DNA of 64,000 nucleotides from Chloroflexota bacterium (GTDB lineage Bacteria; Chloroflexota; Dehalococcoidia; Bin125). The notes below the pieces were generated by a model. It saw only the letters and a list, made by a program, of their open reading frames with translations. It was not told where the DNA came from and searched no databases. Numbering within the stretch: the first letter of the stretch is position 1; the number at the start of each line of letters is the position of its first letter. The DNA lies in assembly GCA_028875225.1 (NCBI GenBank), contig JAPPFB010000012.1, forward strand, positions 294,985-358,984, read 5' to 3'. Made by a program: the position numbers and the translations under genes. This document shows positions 17,415 to 23,169 of this stretch, one piece after another.

Positions 17415-17537
17415 ATCCGCCCCGTTTCGCTGCAGCGCCGACGCTGCTCTGCTGTGCGAAGCCTAACCCTTCACGCTGTTATCCTTGCCTCGCTCGCAAA
17501 CAGATTCCCAACCATTTCCGCAATCTCTGGAGCGACC

Positions 17538-18428
17538 ATGCCCGATATCTCCGCCGACGATCCGTTTCCTCGTAAGCGTCTGACTATTGGCGAGACCACG
17601 ATGGCCTATGTCGATGAGGGCGATCCAGACGGCGACCCGATCATTTTCCTGCACGGCAACCCGACCTCTTCCTACCTGTGGCGCAACATCATGCCGCACG
17701 TGTTTGAGTCGGGAAGGTGTCTGGCGCCCGACCTGATCGGCATGGGCGTGTCCGGCTCGTCTCCATCGGGCTCGTATCGGTTCGTCGACCACGCGGAATG
17801 GGTTGACGCCTGGATCGAGGGCATGAACCTGGGCGACAACCTGACCTTCGTGATCCACGACTGGGGATCGGCGCTGGGCTTCCACTGGGCCAACCGACAC
17901 CGAGATCGGGTCAAGGGCCTGGTCTACATGGAGGCGATCGTTCGGCCGGTGACCTGGGACGAATGGCCCGAGGCGGCGGCCCGGATTTTCCAGGGCATGC
18001 GCTCGGAAGCCGGTGAGTCGATGGTGCTGGAGAAGAACGTCTTCGTCGAACGGATCCTGCCGGGCAGCGTGTTGCGCGGTCTGACCGAGGAGGAGATGGA
18101 TGTCTATCGGCTGCCCTATCGCGAGGTGGGGGAATCACGCCGACCGACCCTCACCTGGCCTCGGGAGATTCCGATTGACGGCGAGCCGGCAGACGTCGTC
18201 GAGATCGCCCAGAGCTATGCCGACTTCCTCTCGTCGGACGAGTCAGCGCACATTGCGAAGCTGTTCGTCAACGCCGAGCCGGGCGCGATCCTGACCGGGG
18301 CGCAGCGCGAGTTCTGCCGCAGCTGGCCGAATCAGACCGAGGTCACTGTCGCCGGCAACCATTTCATCCAGGAAGACTCGCCGCACGAGATCGGCGCAGC
18401 GATCCGCGAGTGGTACGAAGGTCTCTGA
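17538..18428 (+). CDS. Haloalkane dehalogenase (HLD-II type)
   Basis: A 296-residue alpha/beta hydrolase started at ATG 17538 with a CTCTGGAG ribosome site. It has the features of haloalkane dehalogenases: HGNPTSSYLWRNIMPH with halide-binding N41, nucleophile D108 followed by W109 (VIHDWGSALGFHWA), catalytic acid E132 in YMEAIVRPV (the HLD-II position after strand 6), and H275 in GNHFIQEDSP. The family hydrolyses carbon-halogen bonds to alcohol plus halide. It stands divergent from the VOC/nitroreductase/MaoC operon and is followed by two DinB genes. The dehalogenase call is strong; the substrate is unknown. Confidence 0.9.
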   Translation: MPDISADDPFPRKRLTIGETTMAYVDEGDPDGDPIIFLHGNPTSSYLWRNIMPHVFESGRCLAPDLIGMGVSGSSPSGSYRFVDHAEWVDAWIEGMNLGDNLTFVIHDWGSALGFHWANRHRDRVKGLVYMEAIVRPVTWDEWPEAAARIFQGMRSEAGESMVLEKNVFVERILPGSVLRGLTEEEMDVYRLPYREVGESRRPTLTWPREIPIDGEPADVVEIAQSYADFLSSDESAHIAKLFVNAEPGAILTGAQREFCRSWPNQTEVTVAGNHFIQEDSPHEIGAAIREWYEGL

Positions 18429-18451
18429 CTCGGACGGAACAGGCATTAGAC

Positions 18452-18928
18452 ATGACGGAAATCACCAACGCCGACGAAGCTCGGGCTGCGATCGCGCAAG
18501 CGCGCGCGGAGTTCCGCGAGCTGGTGCAGGGACTCTCGGACGCCGAGTGGGGTCGCAAGAGCCACAACTCCGGCTGGACGAATGGCCAGCTCTGCTGGCA
18601 TATTGCGTTCACCGCCGGGGGCGGCGGCATGCGCGTCTCGCGGCTGCGTCAGGGCAAGGGCTTCGATCCACCCGGTCCGCTGATGGCGGTGTTGCACCTA
18701 TTGAGTGAGTGGATTGTGCGCATCCGTTCGCGAGGGGCGACGCCAGCGACGGTGCTGGCGCTCTTTGACGAGACGTGCACCAGGACGGAGACGGCGATTG
18801 ACACCGTCGCCGACGACGAATGGGGTAACAGCGGCGTGTTCCTCGGCGAGACCATAAGCGTGGGCGATGCGTTTGGGTTCATTGGCGGGCACGTCGCTGA
18901 GCATGCCGCCGAGATGCGTCGCGGCTAG
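18452..18928 (+). CDS. DinB-superfamily protein, tandem copy 1
   Basis: I start at ATG 18452 (158 residues). The four-helix DinB fold is indicated by the three expected metal-binding histidines: H50 (LCWHIAF), H147 and H151 (GHVAEHAAEM). DinB/YfiT-like proteins include thiol-dependent S-transferases and isomerases that use bacillithiol or mycothiol, and many with no known role. It starts 23 bases after the dehalogenase stop and is probably cotranscribed, which hints at a thiol-linked detoxification role (inference). Confidence 0.8.
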   Translation: MTEITNADEARAAIAQARAEFRELVQGLSDAEWGRKSHNSGWTNGQLCWHIAFTAGGGGMRVSRLRQGKGFDPPGPLMAVLHLLSEWIVRIRSRGATPATVLALFDETCTRTETAIDTVADDEWGNSGVFLGETISVGDAFGFIGGHVAEHAAEMRRG

Positions 18929-19010
18929 TTTGCAGGCCCGTCGCCGGGGTCGAGATCGGCGAAGTATCCGAGCGCCAACCACGGATACGAGTAACGAACA
19001 GGACCGAACC

Positions 19011-19487
19011 ATGGCAGAGATCACCAACGCCGAGGAGGCTCGCGCCTCGCTGGAGCAGGCGCGCTCGGAGTATCGAGAACTGGTCCTTGGGATTTCCGAG
19101 GAGGAGTGGAATCGACAGAGCAACAATGCCGGCTGGACGAACGGCCAGCTCTGCTGGCACATCGCCTTTGGAGTCGGAGCGGGTGGGCAGTCGCTCTCCC
19201 GGCTGCGCAAGAACAAGGGCATGAATCCGCCTGCTCCGCTGATGGCCGTGATCAATTTCGCCAGCCTGTGGTATGTCCGCATCCGTTCGCGCGGCGCCAC
19301 CGCCGAATCGGTGCTCGCGCTGTTCGACGAGGGCTGCGCCAAGATGCAGAAACTGGCCGACGGCATCGGCGACGACGAGTGGAGCAACGGCGGCGTTGTG
19401 CTCGGTTCCGAGACGACCGTTGGCGGCGTGTTCGCGTTTCCGAGCGAGCACATCAGCGAGCACGCAGCCGAGATGCGGCGCGGCTAG
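19011..19487 (+). CDS. DinB-superfamily protein, tandem copy 2
   Basis: A 158-residue paralogue of the gene just upstream, with identical length and the same landmarks: MAEITNAEEAR start, GWTNGQLCWHIAFG, RIRSRGATAESVLALFDEG and EHISEHAAEMRRG with the histidine triad. The two differ mainly around 55-90, which would line the ligand pocket. It appears to be a tandem duplication kept with divergence. Confidence 0.8.
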   Translation: MAEITNAEEARASLEQARSEYRELVLGISEEEWNRQSNNAGWTNGQLCWHIAFGVGAGGQSLSRLRKNKGMNPPAPLMAVINFASLWYVRIRSRGATAESVLALFDEGCAKMQKLADGIGDDEWSNGGVVLGSETTVGGVFAFPSEHISEHAAEMRRG

Positions 19488-19502: not shown

Positions 19503-19931
19503 ATGCCTTTGAGTTCCGAGGACATCTTCGAGCGCTACCCGCCACTGCGCGACATGGAAGCGGTCGCGCTCTTCCAGGAGCTCGGCTACCGCTTCACCGA
19601 TGCCGGCGAGGGCTGGTGCGAAATCACCCTGACCGCGTTGCCGAAGACGCACAATCTGTATGGCATCGTCCATGGCGGCGTCTGGTTGCTGGTCGCCGAT
19701 TCGGCCATGGGCGGCGCGCTGGGCACGATCCAGGGTGAGGGCGAGCGCGTAATCACCGCCCAGTCGGAGTTCCGCTGGCTGCGCGGTTTGGACGGTGACG
19801 TGATTCGTGCCCGGGCGGAGGTGATCCGTCGCGGGCGGACGCTGAGCCACTGCTCGGTGGACCTGTATGACGACCAGGACCGGCATATCGGTCATGGCAA
19901 TGGCACCTACGTGATGCTTCCGCCGGAGTAG
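19503..19931 (+). CDS. PaaI-type hot-dog thioesterase
   Basis: A 142-residue hot-dog protein. The family signature HGGVWLLVADSAMGGAL has H57-G58-G59 and D66, where the Asp on the long helix is the usual catalytic residue of PaaI-type acyl-CoA thioesterases. It starts 15 bases after the second DinB gene. Likely cuts an aromatic or short acyl-CoA ester; substrate unknown. Confidence 0.8.
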   Translation: MPLSSEDIFERYPPLRDMEAVALFQELGYRFTDAGEGWCEITLTALPKTHNLYGIVHGGVWLLVADSAMGGALGTIQGEGERVITAQSEFRWLRGLDGDVIRARAEVIRRGRTLSHCSVDLYDDQDRHIGHGNGTYVMLPPE

Positions 19932-20002: not shown

Positions 20003-20752
20003 ATGGCCGGACGACTTGACGGCAAGACGGCATTGATCACCGGCGGGGCCCGTGGACAGGGCGCCGCCGAGGCGAACCTGTTTGCCGAGGAAGGCGCGAC
20101 GGTGGTGATCACCGATGTGCTCGACTCGGACGGAGAGGCCACAGCGGCGGGCAGCGACCGCATTCGCTACCTGCATCACGACGTGACCAACGAGGACGAA
20201 TGGATTTCCGTGGTCCAGGATGTGCTCGAGGACCATGGCAAGATCGACGCGTTCATCAACAACGCGGGCATCTACCGCCAATCGCCGATCGCCAGTCTCT
20301 CCGTCGAGGAGTACATGGAAGTGATCAACATCAATCAGGTGGGCGTCTTCCTGGGCCTGAAGCACGTCGGACCCGTGATGTGCGAGGCCGGCTCCGGCTC
20401 GATCATCAACATCTCATCGATCGCCGGCATGCGCGGCGGGCCCGGGTCGCTGGCCTATTCGGCCTCGAAGTGGGCGGTGCGAGGCATGACCAAGGTCGCC
20501 ATGGGGGAGTTCGCGCCTTCGGGCGTGCGAGTCAATTCGATTCATCCCGGCCTGATTGAGACGCCGATGCTGCATCAACTGCCGGCGATTGAACAGGGTC
20601 TGACCGACCAGCTGGTTCGCCGGATTCCATACGGCCGAATCGCAGAGGCGGTGGAGGTGGCCCGGCTGGCATTGTTCCTCGCGTCGGACGACTCGGAGTA
20701 CATGAACGGCACCGAATTCATCATCGACGGCGGCATGATCCAGGGGATCTGA
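20003..20752 (+). CDS. Classical SDR oxidoreductase
   Basis: A 249-residue short-chain dehydrogenase of the classical type. It shows the TGGARGQG cofactor motif (13-20), an acidic residue at the end of strand 2 (VVITD, D38) that favours NAD(H), NNAG (86-89), and catalytic S139, Y152 and K156 (YSASK). The C-terminal NGTEFIIDGG motif completes the fold. Likely oxidises or reduces a hydroxyl/keto group. It sits between the thioesterase and the cyclase fusion. Confidence 0.9.
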   Translation: MAGRLDGKTALITGGARGQGAAEANLFAEEGATVVITDVLDSDGEATAAGSDRIRYLHHDVTNEDEWISVVQDVLEDHGKIDAFINNAGIYRQSPIASLSVEEYMEVININQVGVFLGLKHVGPVMCEAGSGSIINISSIAGMRGGPGSLAYSASKWAVRGMTKVAMGEFAPSGVRVNSIHPGLIETPMLHQLPAIEQGLTDQLVRRIPYGRIAEAVEVARLALFLASDDSEYMNGTEFIIDGGMIQGI

Positions 20753-20773: not shown

Positions 20774-22183
20774 ATGAGCGCTCCGCCTGTCCAGTACACG
20801 CGCACCGAGGACGACGTCGACATCGCCTGGGTCGAGCGCGGCGTGGGCAAGCCGTTGGTCGTGTCGACGGGACCGATGTTGCCACTCAACCTGGGTTGGG
20901 AGCCCGGCGGAGTCTGGGAGCGGCTCTCGCAGTCGTTCCGGGTGATTCGATTCGATCCGCGGGGCTGCGGTCTGTCCGAGCGCGACGGAGTATTCGGTTC
21001 GTTTCACGATGAGGCGCTGGATTTGGCGGCCGTGGTCAATGAACTTGGAGCGCCGCGAGTGGCGCTGATGGGCCATTACATCGGCACGCCAGCTGCCGTG
21101 ATTGCGATGCTGAACGAACCGGAGCGATACACGCACCTGTTCCTGCATCTGCCGATTCCCATGGGGGGAGATCGGTCAGGAATGGTGCAGCACAGCGAGG
21201 TCAGCGATCTGATCGACAAGACAGTGGAGAATCTGTTGCGGTTGGGGTGGCAGCATCATGACGAGGCGGCTCGACGCGCGCTCCTGACGATGATCGCACC
21301 GTCTGCCGATGAAGCCACGCTGCGCAACCTGTCGCAAATGATGCATCACTATCCGTCCATGAACCGATTGTTCGGTCTGGTTCGCGAGATGCGCGATCTG
21401 GACCTGCGAAAGGAATTACGCGACGTCGAGATACCGACCCTGATCTCCATCCCATCCGAGGAGGAGGGATTTGACGGGGGATACAGCTCGATGGGCCGCG
21501 ATTGGGCGCGAATCATTCGAGGGGCGCGATTGATCGTGGCCACCGACCACACGCCGGTACTGGTTGACAACGCCCCCACCATCTCGCAGATTGCCGATGC
21601 TCTTGAGGATTTCATCGGCGTGGACGAAGCGATCCGAACGACCGGCGAGGCGACGCGCACGATTCTGTTCACCGACATCGAAGGATCGACCTCAATGGTC
21701 GACCGATTGGGCGACGACGAGGCGCGCGCGATCACACGCGAGATTGAACAGCTCACCCATACCGCCATCCGCGACCACCAGGGCGTGCTGGTCAAGACGA
21801 TGGGCGATGGCGTGTTGGCATGGTTCGGGGCTGCGTCGTCCGCCGTCGAGACGGCGGTACAGATTCAATCGCAACTCGCCACGCACGAGCGCTACAACGA
21901 CGTCTACGTGAGAATCGGCTTGAGCGCCGGTGAGCCGATCGCCGAATCGGACGACTTGTACGGAGCCACGGTCAACCAGGCGGCGCGCATCATGTCGATG
22001 GCGCAAGGTGGCCAGATCCTCGTCTCTGATCTGGTTCGCGGACTGCTGCAGGGGCGCAGATTCCGCTTCGAGGATCGGGGAACACACCAATTGCGCGGAT
22101 TCCGCGATTCGATCCAGATATTCAGCGTCGACTGGCAGAGCGCCTCGGGCGAACGCATGCCCCTGGAAGGGACAAACCGATGA
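20774..22183 (+). CDS. Alpha/beta-hydrolase-like sensor fused to class III adenylate/guanylate cyclase
   Basis: A 469-residue fusion. Residues about 1-283 have the alpha/beta-hydrolase fold, but the nucleophile elbow reads LMGHYIGTPAA, with Y102 where Ser is expected, so hydrolase chemistry is doubtful. Residues about 295-455 form a class III cyclase catalytic domain: metal-binding D301 (LFTDIEGSTSMV) and D345 (KTMGDGVLAWFG), K341 and D394 in purine-selecting positions (adenine favoured), and N401/R405 (VNQAARIM). No membrane segment is evident, so it is probably cytoplasmic. I infer that the dead hydrolase fold is a small-molecule sensor for cyclase output. Its stop overlaps the next start (ATGA). 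Confidence 0.9.
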   Translation: MSAPPVQYTRTEDDVDIAWVERGVGKPLVVSTGPMLPLNLGWEPGGVWERLSQSFRVIRFDPRGCGLSERDGVFGSFHDEALDLAAVVNELGAPRVALMGHYIGTPAAVIAMLNEPERYTHLFLHLPIPMGGDRSGMVQHSEVSDLIDKTVENLLRLGWQHHDEAARRALLTMIAPSADEATLRNLSQMMHHYPSMNRLFGLVREMRDLDLRKELRDVEIPTLISIPSEEEGFDGGYSSMGRDWARIIRGARLIVATDHTPVLVDNAPTISQIADALEDFIGVDEAIRTTGEATRTILFTDIEGSTSMVDRLGDDEARAITREIEQLTHTAIRDHQGVLVKTMGDGVLAWFGAASSAVETAVQIQSQLATHERYNDVYVRIGLSAGEPIAESDDLYGATVNQAARIMSMAQGGQILVSDLVRGLLQGRRFRFEDRGTHQLRGFRDSIQIFSVDWQSASGERMPLEGTNR

Positions 22184-23169
22184 CTGAAATGACCAGGCGT
22201 GAACGCGTGCGGGCCGCGATTTCGGGTGAGCCGGTCGACCGCGCGCCTGCGTCCCTCTGGGGGCACGACTTTCTGCGCGAGTGGAGCAATGACGAACTCG
22301 TCGGCGCGACCTGCGAACAGTACGAGGCGTACGACTGGGACTTCATCAAGATCAATCCTCGCTGGTCGATGTTTCCCGAGGCCTGGGGCGCGGTCTATCA
22401 ACCTCCGGTTGAACAGACCAATCAGACCATGATCCGTCCGGCCCTGAGCGAACTGGAGGAATTGCACGACGTTGTCCCGGTTCACGCCGAGCGCGGCGTC
22501 TTCGGTGAACACATCGAGTCGACACGCCTGGTTGTCGAGCGAACCGGGGGCGAGGTTGACGTGGTCCAGACGGTGTTCTCGCCAATGGCGACGGTGGGAC
22601 TGATGTTCGGTCATCCACGAGCCTTCAAGCTGGCGGCGGCCGAAGCGCCCGCCGCCGTCCATGGCGCGATCGCGCGAGTGACGGAGACGATCATCAACTA
22701 CAGCCGGGCCAACATGAACGCCGGCGCCTCCGGCGTCTTCTACGCGCCGCTGCAGTGGGCCAGCCACGCCAACTCCACACCTGACTTCTACCGCGAGTTC
22801 GGCCGTCCCTATGACCTGCAAGTCCTGGACGCGATCCGAGACGCCGAGTTCAACATCCTCCACGTCTGCCACACCAACAACATGCTGGCCGATGTGCTCG
22901 ACTATCCGGTCCACGCATTCAACTGGGACGACCGCGACGAGACCAACGCCAGCCTGGCCGACGTCTGGTCGCAGACCGACAAAGCCGTCATGGGCGGCGT
23001 CAGCCGGGCTGGTCTCGGGGAACTCGGCGCGGACGAAGTGCGCAATCAGGCGTCGGAGGCGGCGAGCGTCGGCAACACGCGGGTGTTTGTCACCGGAGGC
23101 TGCTCGATTCCGCCGCATACATCGCAGGAGAATCGCGCGGCGGTGGCGTCTGGGGTACGGGGGAACTAG
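22180..23169 (+). CDS. UroD/MtaA-superfamily protein (cobamide methyltransferase-like)
   Basis: A 329-residue TIM-barrel protein of the uroporphyrinogen decarboxylase superfamily. H228-x-C230 (ILHVCHTNN) and C308 (VTGGCSIPP) form the H-x-C...C zinc-site pattern of MtaA/CmuA-type methylcobamide methyltransferases rather than true heme-pathway UroD. Family members move methyl groups between a corrinoid protein and a thiol. No corrinoid-binding protein is seen nearby. It is translationally coupled to the cyclase fusion (four-base ATGA overlap), so its activity may be linked to cyclic nucleotide signalling. Confidence 0.8.
   Translation: MTEMTRRERVRAAISGEPVDRAPASLWGHDFLREWSNDELVGATCEQYEAYDWDFIKINPRWSMFPEAWGAVYQPPVEQTNQTMIRPALSELEELHDVVPVHAERGVFGEHIESTRLVVERTGGEVDVVQTVFSPMATVGLMFGHPRAFKLAAAEAPAAVHGAIARVTETIINYSRANMNAGASGVFYAPLQWASHANSTPDFYREFGRPYDLQVLDAIRDAEFNILHVCHTNNMLADVLDYPVHAFNWDDRDETNASLADVWSQTDKAVMGGVSRAGLGELGADEVRNQASEAASVGNTRVFVTGGCSIPPHTSQENRAAVASGVRGN

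Follow-up and report, generated by a model that had tools for sequence, protein, structure and literature searches.

A class III cyclase fused to a triad-less alpha/beta-hydrolase, a probable sensor cyclase within a larger Dehalococcoidia family

The window, a stretch of 64,000 nucleotides from a Chloroflexota bacterium, codes for a fusion of an alpha/beta-hydrolase-fold domain to a class III cyclase, preceded by genes for a hotdog thioesterase and a short-chain dehydrogenase/reductase (SDR) and followed by a URO-D/MtaA-like gene (Table 1). All orthologous loci read retain the order thioesterase, SDR, cyclase, and URO-D, and the cyclase stop and URO-D start abut or overlap in most loci of the same genus; in the window, the ATGA overlap probably couples translation of the URO-D/MtaA-like gene to that of the cyclase. 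Twelve loci with long flanks also code, farther upstream, for a haloalkane-dehalogenase-like protein and two DinB-like proteins. In the window, the haloalkane-dehalogenase-like protein of this conserved cluster matches NCBIfam NF002938 (415 bits, cut-off 241), and the other two are adjacent DinB/mycothiol-maleylpyruvate-isomerase-like paralogues that are likewise paired in orthologous loci. With a thioesterase, an SDR, a URO-D/MtaA-like protein, and a haloalkane-dehalogenase-like protein, the neighbourhood points to the metabolism of small organic compounds. The cyclase diverges faster than these neighbours, with 75 to 85% identity in many genomes versus about 84 to 97% for the SDR, thioesterase, and URO-D proteins.

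Table 1. Coordinates of the fusion gene, its parts and its neighbours in the window, and of related genes at other loci (prefixed L; G and C denote genome and contig)
Feature	Location	Strand	Remarks
Haloalkane-dehalogenase-like protein	17526..18428	+	
DinB/mycothiol-maleylpyruvate-isomerase-like paralogues	18449..18928, 19005..19487	+	
Hotdog thioesterase	19503..19931	+	Conserved neighbour
SDR	20003..20752	+	Conserved neighbour, directly upstream of cyclase
Alpha/beta-hydrolase - class III cyclase fusion	20774..22183	+	Single ORF, ATG to TGA, 469 aa
Alpha/beta-hydrolase fold domain, catalytic triad lost	20786..21628	+	Residues about 5-285; Pfam, fold model, triad columns
Nucleophile elbow LMGHYIGTPAA	21065..21097	+	Residues 98-108; sequence and model; Tyr102 codon 21077-21079
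Catalytic-acid position	21461..21463	+	Residue 230 = Glu; alignment columns
Catalytic-His position	21554..21556	+	Residue 261 = Pro; alignment columns
Interdomain linker	21623..21649	+	Residues 284-292; low confidence in AlphaFold2 model
Class III cyclase catalytic domain	21647..22138	+	Residues about 292-455; D301, K341, D345, D394, N401, R405
URO-D/MtaA-like protein	22180..23169	+	ATG overlaps cyclase stop (ATGA)
Hydrolase module - Ser/Thr kinase fusion	L252:1151-4483	-	
Hydrolase module - Ser/Thr kinase fusion	L253:385-5352	+	
Hydrolase module - Ser/Thr kinase fusion	L254:2-1582	-	
Hydrolase module - LuxR/GerE fusion	L257:1100-2194	-	
Hydrolase module - LuxR/GerE fusions	L258:641-1816, L258:2507-3652	+	
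Hydrolase module - LuxR/GerE fusion	L259:83-1264	+	
Tandem fusion array	L233 (G596:C27:7000-21000)		
Tandem fusion array	L234 (G596:C88:1-6200)		
Intact hydrolase, degenerate cyclase	L073:1249-2820	-	
Intact hydrolase, degenerate cyclase	L075:1252-2814	-	

The open reading frame, the Pfam matches, and the fold model agree on a class III cyclase fused to an alpha/beta-hydrolase that lacks its nucleophile, as an earlier note on this DNA had proposed. Guanylate_cyc matches residues 296 to 450 with 65.4 bits, above its cut-off, and alpha/beta-hydrolase families match weakly at about residues 45 to 253 (Abhydrolase_1, 25.2 bits versus a cut-off of 25.8); no PAS domain was found in the fusion protein with Pfam. 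Both folds are visible in an AlphaFold2 model built from 25 relatives (mean pLDDT 81, pTM 0.59), and the predicted structure settles the identity of the hydrolase half, which aligns with the esterase 5h3h over 256 residues (Z 28.2, rmsd 2.4). Its closest folds are the aryl esterases and haloperoxidases (1va4, 1a8q, and 5h3h; Z about 28), although these are unfused, active Ser-Asp-His enzymes. The cyclase half gives Z of 25 to 27 against the cyclase domains of Ma1120 and Rv1900c. The linker between the halves is poorly predicted (pLDDT <50), and the relative placement of the two domains is thus not fixed by the model.

Tyr replaces Ser in the G-H-Y-I-G elbow, also as first noted. Tyr102 sits in the model at the nucleophile elbow, the junction of strand 96-101 and helix 102-114, in blocks with pLDDT of about 91, and the elbow contains neither a Ser nor a Cys elsewhere, residues whose presence there would have counted against the reading of the earlier note. 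The Ser, Cys, or Asp nucleophile of alpha/beta-hydrolase enzymes is absent from all 16 orthologues, and the acid and His of intact relatives align with positions 230 and 261 of the window protein, which are not conserved as Asp and His and vary among the orthologues. His259 was considered as the catalytic His and rejected, as it lies two positions away from the His column of the family and most orthologues of the same genus have Asp in its place. Loss of hydrolase catalysis in the window protein is well supported by these alignments, with the entire triad missing and not Ser alone. The cyclase half retains the metal-binding D301 and D345 and the ATP/purine-selecting K341 and D394, in agreement with the initial reading, together with the transition-state N401 and R405; judged by sequence, it carries every residue required for conversion of ATP to cAMP.

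The two-domain architecture, as judged by domain order, is already known from LipJ (Rv1900c) of Mycobacterium tuberculosis, which had been overlooked. Residues 3 to 450 of the window protein match positions 7 to 447 of the LipJ model NF058673 (NCBIfam, bifunctional lipase/adenylate cyclase), but with 162.7 bits they fall far under the curated cut-off of 800. The LipJ cyclase domain (1ybt and 1ybu) is 34% identical to that of the window protein (Z 25.9). PMC10865251 lists LipJ as an esterase, and in its cyclase the transition-state Asn is replaced by His (PMC4886424), whereas the window protein has Asn at this position. The window protein also differs in the loss of its triad, as Ser-Asp-His is kept in LipJ-like relatives with an SEGG elbow, a comparison made with the elbows of those relatives. 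The nearest solved cyclase domain by sequence is that of the Mycobacterium avium adenylyl cyclase Ma1120 (4wp3 and 4wp9; E 1e-25, 35% identity), which fits the model with an rmsd of 1.2 over 161 residues (Z 26.6 versus 4wp9), although the solved entries are without a hydrolase domain.

Other hydrolase-fold proteins act in signaling. In the RsbQ-RsbP system of Bacillus, an alpha/beta-hydrolase serves as the sensor input for diverse outputs, and the RsbQ triad is needed (PMC3183031). RsbQ (1wom; Z 25.3 versus the window hydrolase half) resembles the window protein in using a hydrolase as signaling input, but it is a separate protein acting on a PAS domain, whereas the window hydrolase is fused to its output and has lost its triad. 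The earlier note's comparison with plant hormone receptors is apt in idea, as GID1 is a hydrolase fold that lost catalysis and became a hormone receptor, but not in detail: the gibberellin receptor GID1 has lost His alone and binds the hormone with its Ser and Asp, and D14/KAI2 keep the triad (PMC3531792), whereas the window protein lacks Ser as well, and none of these plant proteins has a cyclase. Close kinship to plant receptors was not found, the lone related PDB match being marginal (6j2r, E 9e-4).

Including the window protein there are 16 distinct orthologues from 16 genomes, of which 15 belong to the same genus and the remaining one to a sister genus; the others are 53 to 95% identical to it. 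All 16 carry Tyr102, which excludes chance or assembly error, and all have full-length frames; most of the genomes used appear metagenome-assembled and are hence incomplete. The dN/dS ratio is about 0.10 in the hydrolase and cyclase halves alike and 0.02 to 0.04 in the closest pairs, values that are rough because dS is near saturation (median 1.2). The hydrolase half is under purifying selection.

For the wider family, 163 distinct fusions of full length were collected from genomes of Chloroflexota and plasmids of proteobacteria. Conservation of Tyr, which the earlier note had proposed to check in homologous fusions, holds in the orthologues but not beyond them: the nucleophile column has 16 residue types (S 62, Y 25, G 17, L 14, V 8, and T 7, with Phe, Ala, Asn, Ile, His, Gln, Trp, Met, Glu, and Pro being rarer), and 16 of the 25 Tyr-bearing fusions make up the clade of the window protein. 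D301, D345, and R405 are each retained in 160 of the 163. A tree built with the elbow columns omitted separates a LipJ-like clade, mostly with G-x-S-E-G-G together with Asp and His, from a clade of Dehalococcoidia that contains a subgroup bearing Ser and a large radiation whose residue 102 varies freely. The orthologues lie inside this radiation, and their triad loss is part of it, a point that the earlier note had missed. Ser-bearing active homologues, which were to speak against a sensor, do occur, taken literally, in the form of the LipJ-type fusions, but these are in a different clade and are evidence of ancestry, not of the activity of the window protein. The direction of change, presumably loss of the triad, rests on the intact triads of each of the two main clades and of the enzyme superfamily at large, the tree being unrooted.

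A second tree, inferred under a mixture model without any of the triad columns, requires at least 13 changes between Ser and non-Ser at the nucleophile, and residue 102 changes at least 64 times, versus 2 at each metal site and a median of 51.5 for hydrolase columns. Strong co-evolution of Ser loss and His loss was considered (Fisher p 7e-16), yet an independent-pairs test is not significant and we do not use it as evidence; given the 13 minimal changes, the association is mostly inherited. Relative to 44 triad-bearing members, 81 His-less ones gain most variability in the active site, at positions 230 (acid), 102 (nucleophile), 261 (His), 103 (next to the nucleophile), and 33 (oxyanion loop); we note that 102 and 261 are partly circular here, since Ser and His define the triad-bearing set, but 230 is not. 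Column 102 has 3.5 bits of entropy among 78 pseudo-hydrolase paralogues versus its fixed Tyr in the orthologues, and positions 30, 33-35, 62, 65, 102, and 104 are all invariant in the 16 orthologues and hypervariable among paralogues, a pattern that would be expected of specificity positions. The hypervariability of the dead active site could be drift and not selection for new ligands; what speaks against drift is limited to the invariance within the orthologues and to the low dN/dS, with its near-saturated dS.

Copy number can be high, with 22 full-length fusions in genome G596 (Dehalococcoidia, 2.5 Mb, 78% complete), three of them with an intact triad, and at least 10 in the single-contig genome G518. 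We also observe in G596 two tandem fusion arrays with differing elbow residues (Table 1). Paralogues outside the clade of the window protein share no common operon, and their neighbourhoods differ. The same hydrolase module is fused to Ser/Thr kinases in three proteins, one of which also has cyclase and AAA domains, and to LuxR/GerE DNA-binding domains in four; in all of these the elbow is without Ser at the nucleophile position. A module shuffled among cyclase, kinase, and LuxR outputs behaves as an input (sensor) domain. One of the kinase proteins (L252) has three hydrolase modules around a single kinase, and all three lack the nucleophile Ser.

We consider it likely that the window protein is a soluble, one-protein sensor cyclase in which the dead-hydrolase domain binds a small metabolite. 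This sensor role was the central proposal of the earlier note, and it is supported indirectly, through the loss of catalysis, the purifying selection, an active site fixed in orthologues and hypervariable in paralogues, and the shared module on several outputs; these data also extend the idea from a single protein to a family. The domain is kin to an esterase-like fusion partner of the LipJ type and has lost its nucleophile, acid, and His, yet purifying selection maintains it; the emptied pocket, with Tyr102 lining the old nucleophile position, would bind a small organic metabolite but not cleave it. Such binding may alter the packing of the hydrolase domains, and this change would pass through the short linker to rearrange the cyclase homodimer, switching its shared active sites on or off. 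A substrate or product of the conserved thioesterase-SDR-cyclase-URO-D cluster is the probable ligand, and the effect of cAMP would be mediated by one of two cNMP-binding proteins encoded in the genome. No cAMP target operon was identified, which we count against the sensor-cyclase reading.

Non-catalytic proteins of the alpha/beta-hydrolase fold that work by protein contacts exist, as in the NDRG family. With this precedent, the hydrolase domain might control the cyclase by dimerization or contact with a partner protein and bind no small molecule; low dN/dS demonstrates function without saying which. We nonetheless regard this as unlikely, as the positions that are hypervariable in paralogues and fixed in orthologues include the active site (30-35, 62, 65, and 102-104), where surface contacts would not place diversity. 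The alpha/beta-hydrolase fold also supports non-hydrolytic reactions. Tyr102, invariant in orthologues, could then serve as acid/base or nucleophile in Ser-free catalysis (lyase or isomerase), with product or turnover controlling the cyclase, and RsbQ does require its triad for signaling (PMC3183031). This is less probable still, given that the acid and His positions vary even among orthologues and that relatives carry Gly, Leu, Val, or Ile in the nucleophile column, substitutions incompatible with any common chemistry. That the hydrolase half is a functionless, decaying leftover of a LipJ-like esterase would fit the complete triad loss, but this is strongly disfavoured by its low dN/dS, equal to that of the cyclase half, and by the intact frames and conserved gene order of the orthologues.

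Returning to the sensor cyclase, the relatives suggest that dead enzymes of this fold may have been reused repeatedly as a large set of chemical sensors. In related Dehalococcoidia the dead-hydrolase module would have multiplied and diversified into receptors, attached for the most part to cyclases and otherwise to Ser/Thr kinases or LuxR DNA-binding domains. We tentatively propose, with somewhat more reserve than for the window protein itself, a chemosensory repertoire of tens of intracellular paralogues per genome, often in tandem, with hypervariable pockets and cyclase, kinase, or LuxR outputs; within such a repertoire the window protein is a single-copy, cluster-bound member of its own genus. 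The literature searched held nothing on hydrolase-fold sensors in Chloroflexota and no account of a receptor family with many copies and several outputs in which the whole triad is lost and the nucleophile site is hypervariable, a combination that none of LipJ, RsbQ, and GID1 has. The Dehalococcoidia radiation, with its dismantled triad, hypervariable nucleophile position, fixed cyclase metal sites, and several outputs, thus looks new.

If true, the dead-hydrolase repertoire would form, within a single soluble fold, the bacterial equivalent of a receptor gene family, and it suggests an unrecognized intracellular chemosensing system in uncultured Chloroflexota. The evolution of receptors from enzymes is usually argued from a few plant proteins (GID1, D14, and KAI2). 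Here, a single family covers the range from complete Ser-Asp-His triads to wholly dismantled ones, which even occur together within a single genome, and because its output can be assayed by its own product, cAMP, the transition from enzyme to receptor is testable. Decay in the reverse direction is also seen, in two fusions (L073 and L075; Table 1) with an intact Ser-Asp-His hydrolase and a cyclase without the metal Asp and Arg.
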